This document shows, piece after piece, positions 3,201 to 44,700 of a stretch of DNA of 64,000 nt. Numbering within the stretch: the first letter of the stretch is position 1; the number at the start of each line of letters is the position of its first letter. A model generated the notes under the pieces. It worked only from the letters and a program-made list of their open reading frames with translations, was not told the DNA's origin and did not search any database. Origin of the DNA: Lytechinus variegatus. Its lineage: Eukaryota; Echinodermata; Echinoidea; Temnopleuroida; Toxopneustidae. The stretch is from assembly GCF_018143015.1 (NCBI RefSeq), contig NC_054746.1, positions 42,164,201 to 42,228,200 of the forward strand, given 5' to 3'. The position numbers and the translations under genes are program-made.

Positions 3201-4127
3201 GAGTTTCATTTGATGATGATTTCATATCAAGGTCTCTGTGATCCTGTTTTATCTCTAAATCTGAGTCTAATCTTCTTGCATCATCCTGAAATGTATCCTC
3301 CTTGCATACAGGATCATCCGACTTCACATTGATATTACATTCATCTAGAAGGGCCTCAACGTCTTTGGAGAAATCGATTCCTTCAAGATCTGTTCCTTTC
3401 GATGCCCGTCCTCTACTCTGGTCAAAACATGGTGTAAGAGGATCCAGCTCAAAGTCCACGTCCAGATCTATCTCATTAACTACATCAGGAGATGGATGGC
3501 TAGGATGAAACTCTTGGCATGAATCAGGATCATCTACCAGAGTCTGAGATATTGCTTTGTCCTTTGATCCTGCAGGTGGGTTTGATAAAGCAGAATCTGA
3601 TGAGCTCTCTGAAAGAAACCAAAAGCTCAATTATTTGATAAAATGCACAAAATGCTGCAATATCAATCTTTTCTACTTGATCTCCATCTTTTGAAGATCC
3701 AAAATGTGAAAATTTCATTGAAAATATAAAACAAGGTATTACCTAATTATGCCACATTTTGTTGAAGAGGCATAAAACAAAAGAATATTAGTGGCAGTTG
3801 GTGGCTGCCCACAACAAACCACCACCTTAAAATTCCTTCCTAAGTACCAAATACAAAGGAGCAATAAACTTATCAATTTCTGACATATTTGAGGTAACTT
3901 CTAGATTAATCATTACTTTCTCACAATCACTCAGTAATAACTTACTCCCATAATTATGTCATGATTCAAACCCTTCAATACTTGTACTTACGTTGTGTAT
4001 CTCTTATAAATCCAAAGGCTGATATTGATTGTTCATTGCATTCTTTCTGTTCCTTCCTTGGTTTTGAATCATCTTTATTCGTCTCTCCCTTCCCTCCACT
4101 GATCTTCATCCCACTAAACAGTGACAT
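230..4127 (-). CDS. Unrecognised acidic coiled-coil protein, 5' part only
   Basis: Four minus-strand exons join in frame: 3992-4127, 2975-3608, 2399-2547 and 230-539. Each has AG/GT-type borders and the phases match at every junction (136+634+149+310 nt). This gives 409 residues, and the gene continues past the left edge because exon 4 ends in a clean donor (GTAAGA). The start MSLFSGMKI is the first ATG of the exon. Residues 46-256 are acidic and serine-rich with no repeats. From about residue 257 the chain is charged and helical (for example KKKRQRSEWILAIKDLQNQQ), as in a coiled coil. There is no signal peptide or membrane segment. The short N-terminal hydrophobic motif AFGFI resembles peptides that bind adaptor ear domains, but this is only a guess. 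The family was not recognised. The exon chain is well supported; the function is unknown. Confidence 0.72.
1165..1313. mobile_element. Short inverted-repeat (MITE-like) element
   Basis: The arms at about 1176-1211 and 1262-1302 are near-perfect reverse complements: TTTCATAAAGCTGTT with GTAAGTTAAGAGCGAC, mirrored by GTCGCTCTTAACTTAC with AACAGCTTTATGAAA. About 50 bp separate them. There is no coding capacity. The outer ends (TTTCATAAA.. next to GGGGCC) resemble the element at 4357-4499, so both may belong to one group. Confidence 0.75.
1437..2040. mobile_element. 600-bp palindromic MITE, family A, copy 1
   Basis: The ends read GGTCAAGTCCACC and GGTGGACTTGTGC in inverted orientation. Each arm carries the same internal landmarks: an ACTGAAAATTTC block, TAAAATAAGAAAGT and a GATGATGTC block. 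Near-full copies lie at 19380-19986 and 60126-60723, and a truncated one at 4500-4783. The element is non-coding and sits in an intron of the left-edge gene. Confidence 0.85.
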
Positions 4128-10764: not shown

Positions 10765-31325
<20,561 letters not shown>

Positions 31326-34520: not shown

Positions 34521-34661
34521 GTATAGATAACTGTATTATTGTAATCACTATTATTTGTATTTCATCATGTAAATCCTTTGTTAATGTTGTGATTTTTGTA
34601 TGATTTATAATTTACATTTTAATAAAAAATTAGAATAGATGCAATTCCACACACCGTTATA

Positions 34662-35482
34662 CAGTGCGTCCCACAAAAAACGAAACCGAGATTTAGCGAT
34701 GATTTATCATAACTTAATCACAAATAAAATAGACAAATGACCTACCATTGTAAAGCTTAGAATCTCCTCTTTCATCTGAAATTACTTAGATTATTATTCA
34801 TTCACGCATGAGTGAGCAAAAACAATTGGAAGAGGGGATACCAAAAAGTCACTTGGCGGGCTGTATCTGGGTTTCAAAAAGAAAACCACATTTTTAAAAA
34901 GTTCAATATCTGCTCTTTAATTTGATACCTCAATTACAGAAAATGGTCAATAAATAACAAAGTTCTGACTATTTGAAATAAGGCTTGAATTTCAATAATT
35001 TCATAAGATGAAGAGGTTTTACAGGCTAGCGTTCAAACTCACTCGACACTCTGTTTTGTTGACGATCAGCCATGCATCAATTCTTTTGTTACCGTGCGAT
35101 AGCTTCTGCGGGAAACCAGTAAAAACATGTTTATTTAATGAAATTATGAAAATACAAGCATTATTTTGAGGAAACATAACTTTTTTACCTCTTGACCATT
35201 TTATGTGATTAAGGTATCAAATAAAAGAGCAGATATTGAACCTTTTAGGCATGTGATTTTCTTTTTGAAATTCAGATACTACCCGCCAAATGAGTTTTTG
35301 GTATCCTTTCTTCGAATTGTTTTTCGTCACTCATGCGTGAATGAGGAATAATATAAGTAATATCAGATGAAAGAGCAGATTCTAAGCTTTAAATTGGTAG
35401 GTCATTTGTCTATTTTATTTATGATTAAGTTATATGATAAATCATCGCTAAATCTCGGTTTCGTTTTTTCTGGGACGCACTG
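34662..35482. mobile_element. 820-bp palindromic Tc1/mariner-type MITE with TA target
   Basis: The ends CAGTGCGTCCCA and TGGGACGCACTG are perfect inverted repeats. The arms continue with CGAAACCGAGATTTAGCGAT mirrored by ATCGCTAAATCTCGGTTTCG. A TA dinucleotide flanks each side (34660-34661 and 35483-35484), the target signature of Tc1/mariner elements. The arms extend nearly to the centre and there is no transposase. It ends about 245 bp upstream of the ARPIN start codon. Confidence 0.85.
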
Positions 35483-35489
35483 TACAAAA

Positions 35490-35727: not shown

Positions 35728-38700
35728 ATGTCTCGCATTTATGATGACAAACCACTTCAGTCAGTTCCAGTACAGAATCAGACTTGGTCTGGAATCTGGG
35801 AACCACAACAGTTTCAAAAAAGGTAATGTTCCACTAGACAGCTGGCAGCCGTCTGTTTCGAGGAGTTTTTATTTTTTCAATTTCTCCTCGTATTTGGTGA
35901 GTGAAGCCAACGGAGTTCAGCATGAACAAATCAGGGTACTAATGGATAATTCGTTTTTCATACCCGTTCAGCGTACAGCGAAAACGGAAAATCAGTACGT
36001 GGTTCGGTCTTTGAAAACAAAAAACGAAATCACAGCGTGAAAACCCGTGCTGTGATTTCGTTTTTGTTGATCAAAAACAGAATAGGAAATCAGAAATGTT
36101 TTGGGCTCTCTCTGATTTCTCATTTTATATTTGTGTTTTTATGTATCAAAAACAAAACCAGAACACGCTCTCCGCTCCGTGATTCCGTTTGTAAAAACGA
36201 AAGCAGCGAAGACGAGATCAGAGACTCCCTTTTCCAGTCCCTGCAACGTGATTTCGTTTTTCGTACAACCTACAGGCATATTAAAGAGCGCCCTCCAGGA
36301 GGTGAGGCAAGTTTCAATGGAGATTTTAATAAACTGTACCACACATATTATGTTGAAGCCATTTTAAAAGGAGGTGAGGCAAGTTTCAATGGAGGTTTTT
36401 ATAACTGTACTCTAAATTATGTTGAAGCCAATTTAAATGGAGGTGAGGCATGCAGGTTTAAGCTCAGTTATTTAAAAAGAATCAACTGTACCACACATTA
36501 TGGTGAAGCCAGTTTAAAAGGAGGTGAGGCAAGTTTCAATGGAGGTTTTTTTCAAAATAATAAACTATGTAGGCCTACTACACATTATAGTGAAGCCAGC
36601 TAGTTTAAAAGATGGTGAGCTAGGCAAGTTTCAATGGAGGTTTTTATAACTGTACTCTAAATTATGGTAAAGCCAATTTAAATGGAGGTGATGCAGGTTT
36701 CAATGGAGGTTTTTTCGAATAAACTGTACTACACATTATGGTGAAGCGGCACCAGTTTAAATGGAGGCGAGGCAAGTTTCAATGGAGGGTTTTTATAACA
36801 TACTCTAAATTATGGTGAAGCCAATTTGAATGGAGGTGAGGCAAGTTTCAATGGAGGTTTTTTCGAATAAACTGTACTACACATTATGGTGAAGCGGCAC
36901 CAGTTTAAATGGAGGCGAGGCAAGTTTCAATGGAGGTTTTTATAACATACTCTAAATTATGGTGAAGCCAATTTGAATGGAGGTGAGGCAAGTTTCAATG
37001 GAGGTTTTTTAAAAAGAATAAACTGCATGTACCACACATTATGGTGAAGCCAGTTTGAAAGGAGGTGAGGCAAGTTTCAATGGAGGTTTTTTAAAAAGAA
37101 TAAACTGTACCACACATTATGGTGAAGCCAGTTTGAAAGGAGGTGAGGCAAGTTTCAATGGAGGTTTTTTAAAAAGAATAAACTGTACCACACATTATGG
37201 TGAAGCCAGTTTAAAAGGAGGTGAGGCAAGTTTCAATGGAGGTTTTTTAAAAAGAATAAACTGTACCACACATTATGGTGAAGCCAGTTTAAAAGGAGGT
37301 GAGGCAAGTTTCAATGGAGTTTTTTTTAAAAGAATAAACTGTATCACACATTATGATGAAGCCATAAAAGGAATTGAGGCAATTAGTTTCAATGGAGGTT
37401 TTTTCAAAAGAATAAACTGTACACAATATGGTGAAGCCAGTTTAAATGCAGCTAAGGCAAGTTTCAATGGATCGAGGTTTTTTAAATAGAATAAACTGCA
37501 CATTATGGTGAAGCCAGTTTGAAAGGAGGTGAGGCAAGTTTCAATGGAGGTTTTTTAAAAAGAATAAACTGTACCACACATATTATGTTGAAGCCAGTTT
37601 AAAAGGAGTTGAGGCAAGTTTCAATGGAGGTTTTTATTACTGTACTCTAAATTATGGTGAAGCCAGTTTGAAAGGAGGTGAGGCAAGTTTCAATGGAGGT
37701 TTTTTAAAAAGAATAAACTGCATGTACCACAAATTATGGTGAAGCCAATTTAAATGAAGGTGAGGCAGGTTTCAATGGAGGTTTTTTTTTAAAAGAATAA
37801 ACTATACCACACATTATAGTAAAGCCAGTTTTAAAGGAGGTGAGGCAAGTTTCAATGGAGGTTTTTTTAAAAAGAATAAACTGTACCACACATATTATGT
37901 TTAACCCAGTTTTAAAGGAGGTGAGGCAAGTTTCAATGGAGGTTTTTATAATTGTACTCTAAATTATGGTGAAGCCGATTTAAATGGAGGTGAGGCAGGT
38001 TTCAATGGAGCTCAGTTTTTCAAAAAGAATAAGCTGTACCACACATTATGGTGAAGCCACTTTAAAAGGAGGTGAGGCAAGTTTCAATGGAGTTTTTTTC
38101 AAAAGAATAAACTGTACTACACATTATAGTGAAGCCAGTTTAAAAGGAGGCGAGCTAGGCAAGTTCAATGGAGGTTAACTGTACTCTAAATTATGGTGAA
38201 GCCAATTTGAATGGAGGTAAGGCAAGTTTCAATGGAGGTTTTCTAAAAAGAATAAAATAAACTGTACCACACATTATGGTAAAGCCAGTTTGAAAAGAGG
38301 TGAGGCAAGTTTCAATGGAGGTTTTTAAAAAGAATAAACTGTACCACACATTATGGTGAAGCCAGTTTAAAAGGAGGTGAGGCAAGTTCAAATGGAGGTT
38401 TTTTTAAAAAAAGAATAAATTAAACTGTACTTCACATTATGGTGAAGCCAGTTTAAATGGAGGCAAGGCAAGTTTCAATGGAGGTTTTTATAACTACTCT
38501 AAATTATGGTGAAGCCAGTTTGAAAGGAGGTGAGGCAAGTTTCAATGGAGGTTTTTTAAAAAGAATAAACTGTACCACACATTATGGTGAAGCCAGTTTG
38601 AAAGGAGGTGAGGCAAGTTTCAATGGAGGTTTTTTAAAAAGAATAAACTGTACCACACATTATGGTGAAGCCAGTTTAAAAGGAGGTGAGGCAAGTTTCA

Positions 38701-41700
38701 ATGGAGATGTTTAAAAAGAAAGAACTGTACCGGTATTATAGTGAAACCAATTTTAAAGGAGGTGAGGCAAGTTTTAAAGGAAGTTTTTTATAACCGTACT
38801 CCAAATTATGGTGTAGCCAATTTAAAAGGAGGTGAGGCAAGTGCCAATGGAGTTTTTTTTATAACTGTACTACACATGAGTGTGAAGCCAATTGAAAAGG
38901 AGGTGAGGAAAGTTTCAATGTACGTTTCTTAAAAGGAATAAACTGTACCACACATTATGGTGCAGACAGTTTAAAAGGAGGTGAGGCAAGTTTCAATGGA
39001 GGTTCCACTTCCTGCACCATGATTTGGTTTTTTTGTATGAGCTACAGGCAATATTAAAGAGCACCCTTCACGATAATTATACACGTGAACGCAGCGCTTG
39101 CATCGAGTCAGTACATACAGTGCAGGCATTTTTTTTATACTACCACGTGCGTGATTGTGAATCAAGAAGTTGACAAGAAGCTACAAGATGGCTTTTTCAA
39201 GTGTGTCCATTGAAACTTGCCTCACCTCCTTTTAAATTGGCTTCACCATAATTTGGAGTACGGTTATAAAGAACTTCCTTTAAAACTTGCCTCACCTCCT
39301 TTAAATAATACCAGTACAGTTTTTTCTTTTTAAAAATCTCCATTGAAACTTGCCTCACCTCCTTTCAAACTGGCTTCACCATAAATTATTCTTTTCAAAA
39401 ACCTACATTGAAACTTGCCTCACCTCCTTTTCAATTGGCTTCACCATCATTTGTAGTAAGGTTATAAAAAACTTCCTTTAAAACTTGCCTCACCTCCTTT
39501 AAAATTGGTTTCACCATAATACCGGTACAGTTTATTCTTTTTAAAAAACCTCCATTAATTGAAACTTGCCTCGCCTTCATTTAAACTGGCTTCACCATAA
39601 TGTGTAATACATTTAATTCTATTAAAAGAAAACCTCCATTGAAATTGCCTCACCTCCTTTTAAATTGGCTTCAACATAATTTAGAGTACAGTTATAAAAA
39701 CCTCCATTGAAACTTGCCTCACCTCCTTTTAAATTGGCTACACCATAATTTGTTCTTTTAAAAAAACCTCCATTGAAACCTGCCTCACCTCCATTTAAAC
39801 TGGCTTCACCATCATGTGTAGTACAATTCATTCTTTTTCAAAACCTCCATTGAAACTTGCCTCACTTCCTTTTAAACTGGCTTCAACATAATATGTGTGG
39901 TACAGTTTATTCTTTAAAAAAAAAAAACTCCATTGAAACTAGCCTCACCTCCTTTTAAACTGGCTTCGACCACCATAATGTGTGGTACAGTTTATTCTTT
40001 TTAAAAAACCTCCATTGAAACTTGCCTCACCTCCTTTTAACTTGGCTACACCATAATTTGGAGTACGGTTAGAAAGAACTTCCTTTAAAACTTGCCTCAC
40101 CTCCTTTTAAAGTGGCTTCACCATAATGTGTGGTACAGTTTATTCTTTTAAAAAACTGAGCTCCATTGAAACCTGCCTCACCTCCATTTAAATTGGCTTC
40201 ACCATAATTTAGAGTACAATTATAAAAACCTCCATTGAAACTTGCCTCACCTCCTTTAAAACTGGCTTCAACAGAATTTGTGTGGTACAGTTTATTCTTT
40301 TTAAAAAACCTCCATTGAAACTTGCCTCACCTCCTTTTAAACTGGCTTCACCATAATGTGTGGTACAGTTTATTCTTTTTAAAAAACCTCCATTGAAACT
40401 TGCCTCACCTCCTTTCAAACTGGCTTCACCATAATGTGTGGTACAGTTTATTCTTTTTAAAAAACCTCCATTGAAACTTGCCTCACCTCCTTTTAACTTG
40501 GCTACACCATAATTTAGAGTACAGTTATAAAAATCTCCATTGAAACTTGCCTCACCTCCTTTTAAAGTGGCTTCACCATAATGTGTGGTACAGTTTATTC
40601 TTTTTAAAAAACTGAGCTCCATTGAAACCTGCCTCACCTCCATTTAAATTGGCTTCAACAGAATTTGTGTGGTACAGTTTATTCTTTTTAAAAAAACCTC
40701 CATTGAAACTTGCCTCACCTCCTTTTAAATTGGCTTCACCATAATTTAGAGTACAGTTATAAAAACCTCCATTGAAACTTGCCTCACCTCCTTTTAAACT
40801 GGCTTCACCATAATGTGTGTGGTACAGTTTATTCTTTTTAAAAAACCTCCATTGAAACTTGCCTCACCTCCTTTTAAACTGGCTTCGACCACCATAATGT
40901 GTGGTACAGTTTATTCTTTTTAAAAAACCTCCATTGAAACTTGCCTCACCTCCTTTTAACTTGGCTACACCATAATTTGGAGTACGGTTAGAAAGAACTT
41001 CCTTTAAAACTTGCCTCACCTCCTTTTAAAGTGGCTTCACCATAATGTGTGGTACAGTTTATTCTTTTTAAAAAACTGAGCTCCATTGAAACCTGCCTCA
41101 CCTCCATTTAAATTGGCTTCACCATAATTTAGAGTACAATTATAAAAACCTCCATTGAAACTTGCCTCACCTCCTTTAAAACTGGCTTCAACAGAATTTG
41201 TGTGGTACAGTTTATTCTTTTTAAAAAACCTCCATTGAAACTTGCCTCACCTCCTTTTAAACTGGCTTCACCATAATGTGTGGTACAGTTTATTCTTTTT
41301 AAAAAACCTCCATTGAAACTTGCCTCACCTCCTTTCAAACTGGCTTCACCATAATGTGTGGTACAGTTTATTCTTTTTAAAAAACCTCCATTGAAACTTG
41401 CCTCACCTCCTTTTAACTTGGCTACACCATAATTTAGAGTACAGTTATAAAAATCTCCATTGAAACTTGCCTCACCTCCTTTTAAAGTGGCTTCACCATA
41501 ATGTGTGGTACAGTTTATTCTTTTTAAAAAACTGAGCTCCATTGAAACCTGCCTCACCTCCATTTAAATTGGCTTCAACAGAATTTGTGTGGTACAGTTT
41601 ATTCTTTTAAAAAACCTCCATTGAAACTTGCCTCACCTCCTTTTAAACTGGCTTCACCATAATTTAGAGTACAGTTATAAAAATCTCCATTGAAACTTGC

Positions 41701-44700
41701 CTCACCTCCTTTTAAAGTGGCTTCACCATAATGTGTGTGGTACAGTTTATTCTTTTTAAAAAACCTCCATTGAAACTTGCCTCACCTCCTTTTAAACTGG
41801 CTTCACCATAATTTAGAGTACAGTTATAAAAATCTCCATTGAAACTTGCCTCACCTCCTTTTAAAGTGGCTTCACCATAATGTGTGGTACAGTTTATTCT
41901 TTTTAAAAAACTGAGCTCCATTGAAACCTGCCTCACCTCCATTTAAATTGGCTTCAACATAATTTAGAGTACAGTTATAAAAACCTCCATTGAAACTTGC
42001 CTCACCTCCTTTTAAACTGGCTTCAACATAATATGTGTGGTACAGTTTATTAAAACCTCCATTGAAACTTGCCTCACCTCCTGGAGGGCGCTCTTTAATA
42101 TGCCTGTAGGTTGGAGGTTGTACGAAAAACGAAATCACGTTGCAGGGACTGGAAAAGGGAGTCTCTGATCTCGTCTTCGCTGTTTTCGTTTTTACAAACG
42201 GAATCACGGAGCGGAGAGCGTGTTCTGATTTTGTTTTTGATGCATGAAAACACAAGTCACAGAGCGAAAATCGTGTTCTGGTTTCGTTTTTGATACATAA
42301 AAACACAAATATAAAATGAGAAATCAGAGAGAGCCCAAAACATTTCTGATTTCAATATTCTGTTTTTGAGCAACAAAAACGAAATCACAGCACGTGTTTT
42401 CACGCTGTGATTTCGTTTTTTGTTTTCAAAGACCGAACCACGTACTGATTTTCCGTTTTCGCTGTACGCTGAACGGGTATGAAAAACGAATTATCCATTA
42501 GTACCCTGATTTGAACAACCATAACAGAGACCGAAGCTTTCGGTATAATGTTCCACAGGCACAACAATAAACATTACCGTACAATGTTCAGACGGTCGAC
42601 ATCAAATTTGAAGACTAGCTCTCAGACTTTGTCCCATATAAATCGAATAATGTTGGTAAACTATTCCTGTGATTAATAAAAGACATAATATTAGTAATTA
42701 CATGTACCATTGACTTCACTCACTCGGCTAACCCAGGCTAACTCCAAAATGGGGTCGCAATATAGCACTCCAAATAAACGGGGGAAAAATATGCACTTAA
42801 CTCGATTATAATATGGATGAAGGTCTATCTTGAGACACAGAATCCTGACATCGAGGCACAAAATGAAACCTCGAAAAAAGGAAAAGTTGGACCTCTGTCG
42901 TGTTCGTTCTCGGTATCGATTGGCCATTTTGTTTTCAATTTTGACAGAAGGAGAACGAAGGAGACAGAACTTTTCCTTTTTATGAGGGTGAGGTTTGAAG
43001 GTGAATTTTCTTTCCCATTGGAGAATAGAATTAACTAGTGACTTTAAAAATTTGTATTGATTGATTCAAGATAGACCTTTCTTTGTGTAATAAACTCTTT
43101 ATTACTCTTTATACAATATAGTTTTACAAAACGCTATGCGGAGATTGTAATATTTGCCTTGTGTCATAAGATCATAGGGTATATTTACCAATTAATAGTA
43201 CTAGTAGATTTTAAAGCATAGATTGTTGGCCACAGCTTGTGGTTTATGATAGACTTGGACTCCAGTTTGGTCTGGCCTTCATAGCAGAGTGAGACTACAG
43301 GCGCCGCTTTTGCAACATCAGCGTCAACATCAAATCTTAACTTTGGCCAAGTTGGGGTATTTGTTGAATTACCAATATAACTTAAAAGTTTATGGATCTA
43401 GTTCATAAAACTTGGACATAAGAGTAATCAAGTATCACTGAACATCCTGTGTGAGTTTCAGGTCACATGACCAATGTCAAAGGTCATTTATGGTCAATGG
43501 ACTTTCGCCATGTGTGGGGTAATTGTTGAATTGCCATAATAACTTTGAAAGTTTAAGGATATGGTTTATGAAATATGGACATAGGGGTAACCAAGTATCA
43601 CTTTCAAGTGTTGGGTCACATTATCAAGGTCAAATACTAGTATCATTTATAATCAATGAACATAGTATTATATCAGTATATAATTTTGGGGGGAATACTT
43701 ATTTTATTGTTTTCAAAGTTGGCACTGCTACTATGTGGAATAATGTAATGTAGGCGAGACTGTCGGGGGCGCTCCACATGTTTATAAAGAATCAAAACTT
43801 TGAAGATGAATAATATCAAGATCCACACAAACTTAAAAGTAAAAATAAAAGCTATAGTTGATAAAGAAAACAATTAATATTTGCTTTGTTTAACTTGCAG
43901 TGGATCTGGAGCTGTATTGAAAGGAACAATCAAAGCAAGGTCTAGGCATGTTATTACGGACTCTAAACACAACAAAGTAAGTACTGAGTTTGAGATGTTA
44001 AGTTTAACTTAGTGTCATACTCCTAATTGTAGGTTGATAAACTTTTTTTGAGTAATAACTCAGTGTCTTAATAACATAAGGTAGTGATAATTGAACTAAT
44101 ATAAAAAAAATGCCTGATACTATGGTACCAAAACAATAAGCATATTGTTTAATTTCTTTTGCAATAGCACAGAAAAATCCAACTCAAATCCACAGTGTTG
44201 GAGGAACTGATGGTGAGAAATAGGAATTAGTACGGGAGCTTTTCATTGAACAAGGATGAATTTGTTCTTATTTTCAGAGTCGATACTTTGTATTACATGT
44301 GAGGGTAAGCATTGCACATAGAAGACAATTCAACAGCAATGGAGAGGAGATTGAACCCAACATGGATGCTACTCAAAAGGTCAATACTGGACATCTTATG
44401 TCGTCATACAGTAAGTTAATGGTAGCTCTCTCTCTCTTTTTTGTATTCTTTCTCTCTTTACTCAGTTTTCTTCCATTGTATATCCTGATCCTCATCTTGC
44501 CATTTGCTGTACCTACCACATTCTTCTCTTCAACCTTCCTGATTTTTATCACTTACTCTTTTTTCACCCTTCCCATCTCTCTGTCTGTCTCTCTCTTCTT
44601 TTTCCTCCTGCCTATGTTTTAAATGATTTCAAAATATTGTTCTAGTTGTCACTCCTAAGTGCCCGGCTATGCTAGTAATACTATTCTATGGTATTGTGAA

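Follow-up and report, generated by a model that had tools for sequence, protein, structure and literature searches.

The ARPIN locus

The window analysed here, a 64,000-nucleotide stretch of the genome of the sea urchin Lytechinus variegatus (NC_054746.1, positions 42,164,201 to 42,228,200), contains the ARPIN gene, and most of ARPIN intron 1 is occupied by a foldback element. The identity of the gene, proposed in a preliminary description of this DNA, was borne out by the joined exon pieces, which match Pfam PF10574 (Arpin) with an E of 2.3e-63. The coding part of exon 1 lies at 35728–35822 and exon 2 at 43901–43976, both on the + strand, and intron 1 has its donor at 35823, with an acceptor site that finishes at 43900; these splice sites were read by eye, from sequence without a transcript. 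The element starts 106 bp into intron 1, takes up 81% of it and is flanked by the two splice sites.

The element is 6,583 bp long (35929–42511) and consists of a terminal domain, a tandem array, a loop, an opposed array and an inverted terminal domain. It is bracketed by two copies of a 6-bp target-site duplication, TGAACA, at 35923–35928 and 42512–42517. The preliminary description was right about the foldback element itself, including its mirrored terminal domains and mirrored tandem arrays; its limits, 35927–42516, took in parts of the duplication and are corrected here, and the short loop, put at less than 200 bp, is marginally longer at 201 bp. The left terminal domain (35929–36290, + strand) is of a 362-bp type and starts AATCAGGGTACTAATGG, and the right terminal domain (42091–42511, − strand) is of a 421-bp type with an extra 53-bp tandem unit; the two are 98.9% identical over aligned bases, with 63 gap columns. 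The ends of the element are AATCAGGG..CCCTGATT. Inside the terminal domains lie the left array (36291–39004, + strand), the loop (39005–39205, + strand) and, in the opposite orientation, the right array (39206–42090, − strand). When the complete arms (3,076 and 3,306 nt) were aligned, 2,716 bases matched and 160 did not, with 630 gap columns; identity over aligned bases was 94.4%, and the score was 4387 versus 68 when one arm was shuffled.

The units of the left array are mostly near 78–82 and 68–72 bp. Anchor spacings were tallied over ten copies of the family described below, confined to spacings between 50 and 100 bp with those outside dropped (n = 200): 66 were 78 bp, 70 were 79–82 bp and 55 were 68–72 bp, in agreement with the two-period array noted earlier. 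The right array also contains an exact 543-bp duplication at a lag of 920 (40146–40688 = 41066–41608). A coding role for the array, as a 26-codon unit, was considered and rejected. While 124 of the 200 spacings are multiples of three, 66 of these are the single 78-bp unit, and reading-frame selection is unsupported, spacings of 79, 80, 82 and 68 bp also being common.

A dispersed family of copies

When the terminal domain (35927–36295) was searched against the genome, as the preliminary description had suggested, other copies were found: 40 near-full-length matches at 97–100% identity and nine partial ones, with the best 40 of 247 candidates scored. The terminal 30-mer occurs at 163 genomic places (82 + 81) with up to three mismatches and its reversed control at none, which excludes chance; 100 of the 163 places were listed, so that termini were paired for a part of them. 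Twenty stretches of 10 kb were read. Together with the window, they hold 14 copies with both ends, of which 13 span 3.2–8.5 kb and one, L013, whose left domain is just 51 bp, is 2.6 kb (2,626 bp). Exact 6-bp target-site duplications flank 12 of the 14, and that of L017 matches at 5 of 6 bases; this count leaves out L011, L012 and L024, with one end each, as well as L016, L019, L020 and L022, which are composite clusters.

We also looked for empty sites and found paralogous ones. The window's flanks, when joined, match across the junction in L030, L031 and L032 at 87–92% identity, with TGAACA present once in each. For L023, which is inserted in the terminus of a second copy, the pre-insertion sequence is known too. 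When 11 joined flanks were compared with the loci read, five matched across the junction (the window, L009, L015, L023 and, weakly, L025). The element is a foldback DNA transposon with many near-identical copies in the genome. Its inverted repeats are long and contain tandem repeats, its middle domain is small, its copies are dispersed and carry target-site duplications, and the length of the arms varies among copies.

Arms and arrays

Family structure was compared over the ten copies that have one 362-bp-type and one 421-bp-type terminus (L013, L017, L025 and L026 were omitted). Their arrays are 0.96–4.25 kb long and their loops 199–206 bp. The 362-bp-type terminal domains have a mean identity of 99.74% over 45 pairs, 15 of which are identical, and the loops have a mean identity of 97.75% with a minimum of 90.9%. 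Copies so nearly identical suggest recent movement. Array resemblance between copies was 0.63 for left with left and 0.71 for right with right. For opposite arms it was 0.525 within one copy versus 0.508 between different copies; a test for homogenisation between a copy's own arms found none. Since like-sided arrays are closer than opposite arms, the arms seem to be separate lineages, and the copies seem to move whole. The array motif occurs at 4,056 genomic places with up to two mismatches, the control at none.

The arrays of L010, L012, L017, L025 and L027 contain inserts that do not match the element; parts of them match other loci read, and they seem to be other repeats that were nested there afterwards. 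The insert in L012 (2249–6865) is 4.6 kb long and is bounded by direct repeats of about 582 bp that are 99.7% identical and resemble long terminal repeats. A nested sequence of 225–234 bp occurs in L025 (5446–5679) and twice in L027 (2134–2359 and 2817–3041), where the two copies are near-identical, as though duplicated along with the array.

The loop and its relatives

The loop opens with a second copy of the terminal domain's inner 65 bp (81.5% identical), which is followed by leader-like DNA and by what appears to be the start of a parent-type exon: an ATG and five further codons (ATGGCTTTTTCAAGTGTG, 39188–39205, + strand), cut off by the array. Seventeen further termini, partnerless or in clusters, were read. 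Five lead to array (L033, L034, L035, L047 and L049), and two (L045 and L046, both on C11) have an exon without array. In these two C11 loci the terminal domain is continuous with loop sequence and then with the open exon MALSSVFFTDNYRFSVQHQNANCCNLGKLFK, after which comes GTCAGT. In L052 (C2) and L047 (C17) the terminal domain is continuous with MAFSSVFFTDHYRFS..., and array follows. The open exon of the copies on C2, C17 and C11 reads MA[F/L]SSVFFTD...; the window has the same leader and ATG, and array takes over after the six codons. The terminal domains of the exon-bearing C11 and C17 copies are 90–92% identical to that of the foldback. The unbroken exon was found at five places (once on C2, four times on C17) plus at least four on C11. 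At C17:2392528, 2394972 and 2397414 (L047), head-to-tail termini about 2,443 bp apart, with the unbroken exon recurring, resemble a local tandem amplification. In L037 (C5:30371434-30373083), 31 bp of terminal domain alone are followed by open frames that resemble a retroelement integrase.

Among the loci read there are 25 array-bearing loops, or 23 distinct ones after removal of two overlaps, and the breakpoint base is identical in 23 of 23. The motif used for this check was taken from the leader and excluded the breakpoint, leaving its position free. The loop of L025 has a 1-base deletion ahead of the common breakpoint. A pattern that does contain the breakpoint, and so is unable to count other breakpoints, occurs at 42 genomic places with up to three mismatches (control, 0). 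Of 40 scored loops, the best of 51 candidates, 38 fall among these 42 places, the exceptions being L025, with its deletion, and one on C6; the number of loop copies is a lower bound. The second codon in the 42 places is GCT, as in the window, in 16, GCC in 25 and GAC in one. Because the unbroken exon copies also carry GCC, the window's GCT group looks derived.

Proposed origin and mobility

On the sequence evidence, the loop seems to be a broken-off 5' end from a parent-type gene. The common breakpoint suggests that the family comes from a single founder, and one founder, broken in the parent gene, seems the simplest reading. The exon presumably belongs to a gene of the parent transposon, and the direction would have been from parent to foldback. 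We consider it very probable that the element is a non-autonomous foldback, mobilised in trans through cut-and-paste at cuts staggered by 6 bp, and that its founder came from a larger terminal inverted repeat (TIR) element broken by the array. A tandem array would have broken into the parent gene directly after codon six, another array, inverted, would have arisen on the other side, and the 5' end of the parent gene would have been left between them as the loop. Copies would afterwards have spread as whole units, on transposase supplied in trans, while their arrays changed length, in part through internal duplication.

Several observations weigh against this account. Neither an autonomous copy in intact form nor a transposase linked to AATCAGGG termini was found. 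L026 has no target-site duplication, and the clusters on C1, C4, C16 and C17, tandem or composite, are left unexplained by plain cut-and-paste. The empty sites are paralogous, with no allelic one among them, and 6 of the 11 joined flanks have no match across the junction among the loci read (the genome was not searched). At 10 of the 17 further places (L036–L044 and L048), the terminus is good but mere pieces of terminal domain are followed by DNA that is neither array nor exon, for which this account offers no explanation; these are possibly older or other subfamilies. The exon matched none of the known proteins against which it was tested, and the case for its being coding comes from 31 open codons together with a GT donor identified by eye.

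The origin of foldback elements from ordinary transposons has mostly been inferred. In the present genome the stages seem to occur together: a terminal domain leading into an open exon, the exon followed by array, and full foldbacks with one breakpoint. If movement has been recent, living animals should yield polymorphic insertions, small RNAs and the missing transposase.

Candidate transposases

As a refinement of the foldback explanation, we tentatively suggest that the transposase might be of the hAT superfamily, hAT6 kind. The defining trait of hAT6 transposons is a 6-bp duplication (PMC12730594), a length that the ARPIN-intron element, to which no transposase has been assigned, has in common with them and that is constant among its copies. 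Downstream of the exon, and on its strand, both C11 loci contain a hAT-like fragment, whose relative on C15 matches Dimer_Tnp_hAT with an E of 3e-13. The fragment itself, however, has a DUF659 match alone, with an E of 0.0057 that falls short of Pfam's cut-off; it has broken frames, and the N-terminal half was looked for in that C11 locus and not found. Further, no right terminal domain was seen in the C11 DNA examined, the two C11 loci are duplicates of each other and so amount to one observation rather than two independent ones, and a Mutator-like transposase (PF20700, E 2.4e-46) is closer to the exon than the hAT-like fragment is. In one C11 locus 3.8 kb separate the terminus from the PF20700 gene downstream, which is on the same strand as the exon, and a second terminus was not seen there. 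Both the Mutator-like and the hAT-like C11 genes were considered as candidates for the element's transposase, and neither is tied to a second terminus.

The C11 loci form a duplicated region, at C11:8672761-8683399 and 12573630-12585669 (L045 with L050, and L046 with L051), the copies lying about 3.9 Mb apart; both have broken Mutator-like and hAT-like genes downstream of the exon-bearing terminus. A further fragment downstream of the C11 exons and on their strand, without a Pfam match, is presumably Harbinger-like.

It also counts against the hAT6 assignment that other 6-bp groups exist, namely Polintons, Dada and IS3EU. Polinton/Maverick elements make a 6-bp duplication and have an integrase and a DNA polymerase between their termini. 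Dada elements insert into multicopy small RNA genes; the insertion flanks of the present family differ from copy to copy. Dada duplications are given as 6–7 bp (PMC3706591). IS3EU elements make 6-bp duplications, and their ends are stated as TAYGG..CCRTA for a fungal set (PMC12730594). Membership of IS3EU is not supported: the duplication length fits, but the ends AATCAGGG..CCCTGATT do not.

Insertion site and predicted hairpin RNA

At ARPIN the element inserted into a dispersed-repeat copy that lies within intron 1. The left part of this repeat is at 35834–35928, and the repeat resumes at 42518; the left part gave 48 matches, including the window's own, with the best 40 of 1,630 candidates scored. 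The flank of L009 had the look of another ARPIN intron carrying an insertion, but what it shares with ARPIN intron 1 is only the dispersed repeat. With the insertion inside the intron by 106 bp and both splice sites present, removal with the intron is the default expectation. The element is probably spliced out together with intron 1, and we infer that it has no effect on ARPIN.

The predicted minimum energy of the whole-element RNA fold was −4418.6 kcal/mol, as against −1537 and −1548 kcal/mol for two 2-mer block shuffles and −1737 kcal/mol for another 6,583 bases of the window, and 2,665 of the 2,867 predicted pairs join the two arms. The very long duplex that the preliminary description had foreseen is indeed predicted, at an inter-arm length of about 2.7 kb rather than about 3 kb. 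Given transcription of the intron and no unwinding, such a hairpin would be expected, which makes the ARPIN copy a natural, predicted 2.7-kb intronic duplex. We think it unlikely that this hairpin is a functional double-stranded RNA feeding Dicer or ADAR, or changing ARPIN splicing. Its predicted fold is far below those of the shuffles and of other window DNA, and most pairs are inter-arm, as such a role would have it, but both ARPIN splice sites are present in the sequence, and with many copies elsewhere nothing marks the ARPIN copy as special. More speculative, and in our judgement very improbable, is that the foldback family acts to suppress the very parent from which it arose: read-through of a host intron such as that of ARPIN would give hairpin RNA, and small RNAs from it would silence the parent. 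The idea rests on the stem including the terminal domain common to the exon-bearing copies on C11 and C17; if true, it would fit a parent found as partial copies only and foldbacks spreading on residual transposase.

Upstream of the ARPIN start codon, at a distance of about 240 bp, is a palindromic element resembling a miniature inverted-repeat transposable element (34657–35487), with ends CAGTGCGTCCCA. Its outer arms (55 nt) are 96% and its inner arms (312 nt) 85% identical, and its terminal 37-mer occurs at 2,776 genomic places with up to three mismatches (control, 0). ARPIN exon 1 is therefore situated between two palindromes. Another repeat family is present in the window at 43283–43634, within ARPIN intron 1, and at 28962–29809, and also as an insert in the array of L017 (2059–3478).

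Comparison with other elements

The preliminary description had likened the element to the sea urchin TU elements, which have the same foldback plan, with long composite inverted repeats containing tandem units, and come from the same animal class. TU elements have an 8-bp target-site duplication and short tandem units, whereas here the duplication is 6 bp and the units are near 78–82 and 68–72 bp. On this comparison, which sets TU apart by its general description and not by its sequence, the kinship is not supported, and that the element is of TU type is highly doubtful. It is almost certainly wrong to regard the inverted structure as an assembly or replication artefact, or as a local inverted duplication without a transposon, for although arrays do duplicate locally (543 bp at a lag of 920) and some copies are clustered, a like anatomy is found at many separate loci with different 6-bp duplications, the left and right arms carry their own diagnostic types in ten copies, and there are empty sites at paralogous repeats.

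Galileo of Drosophila, a member of the P superfamily, makes a 7-bp duplication. It has the foldback plan seen here and a known P-type transposase, whereas none is tied to the present element. Mu killer of maize is an inverted copy of transposon ends that gives a hairpin RNA homologous to its parent; the ARPIN-intron element likewise consists of inverted transposon ends, and its predicted hairpin would be homologous to its putative parent. No report of the ARPIN-intron foldback family was found in the open-access literature; Repbase was not covered. Tetris of Drosophila virilis is also a non-autonomous foldback (PMC4079207), having long inverted repeats with internal tandem repeats, without a transposase found. 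Compared by description only, Tetris differs in its host, and the present family in that its loop keeps a broken gene start and copies with the unbroken exon exist. In sum, the ARPIN-intron element seems to be a foldback transposon with an unusually legible origin, and the link between its loop and the exon of a parent gene seems to be the new point.

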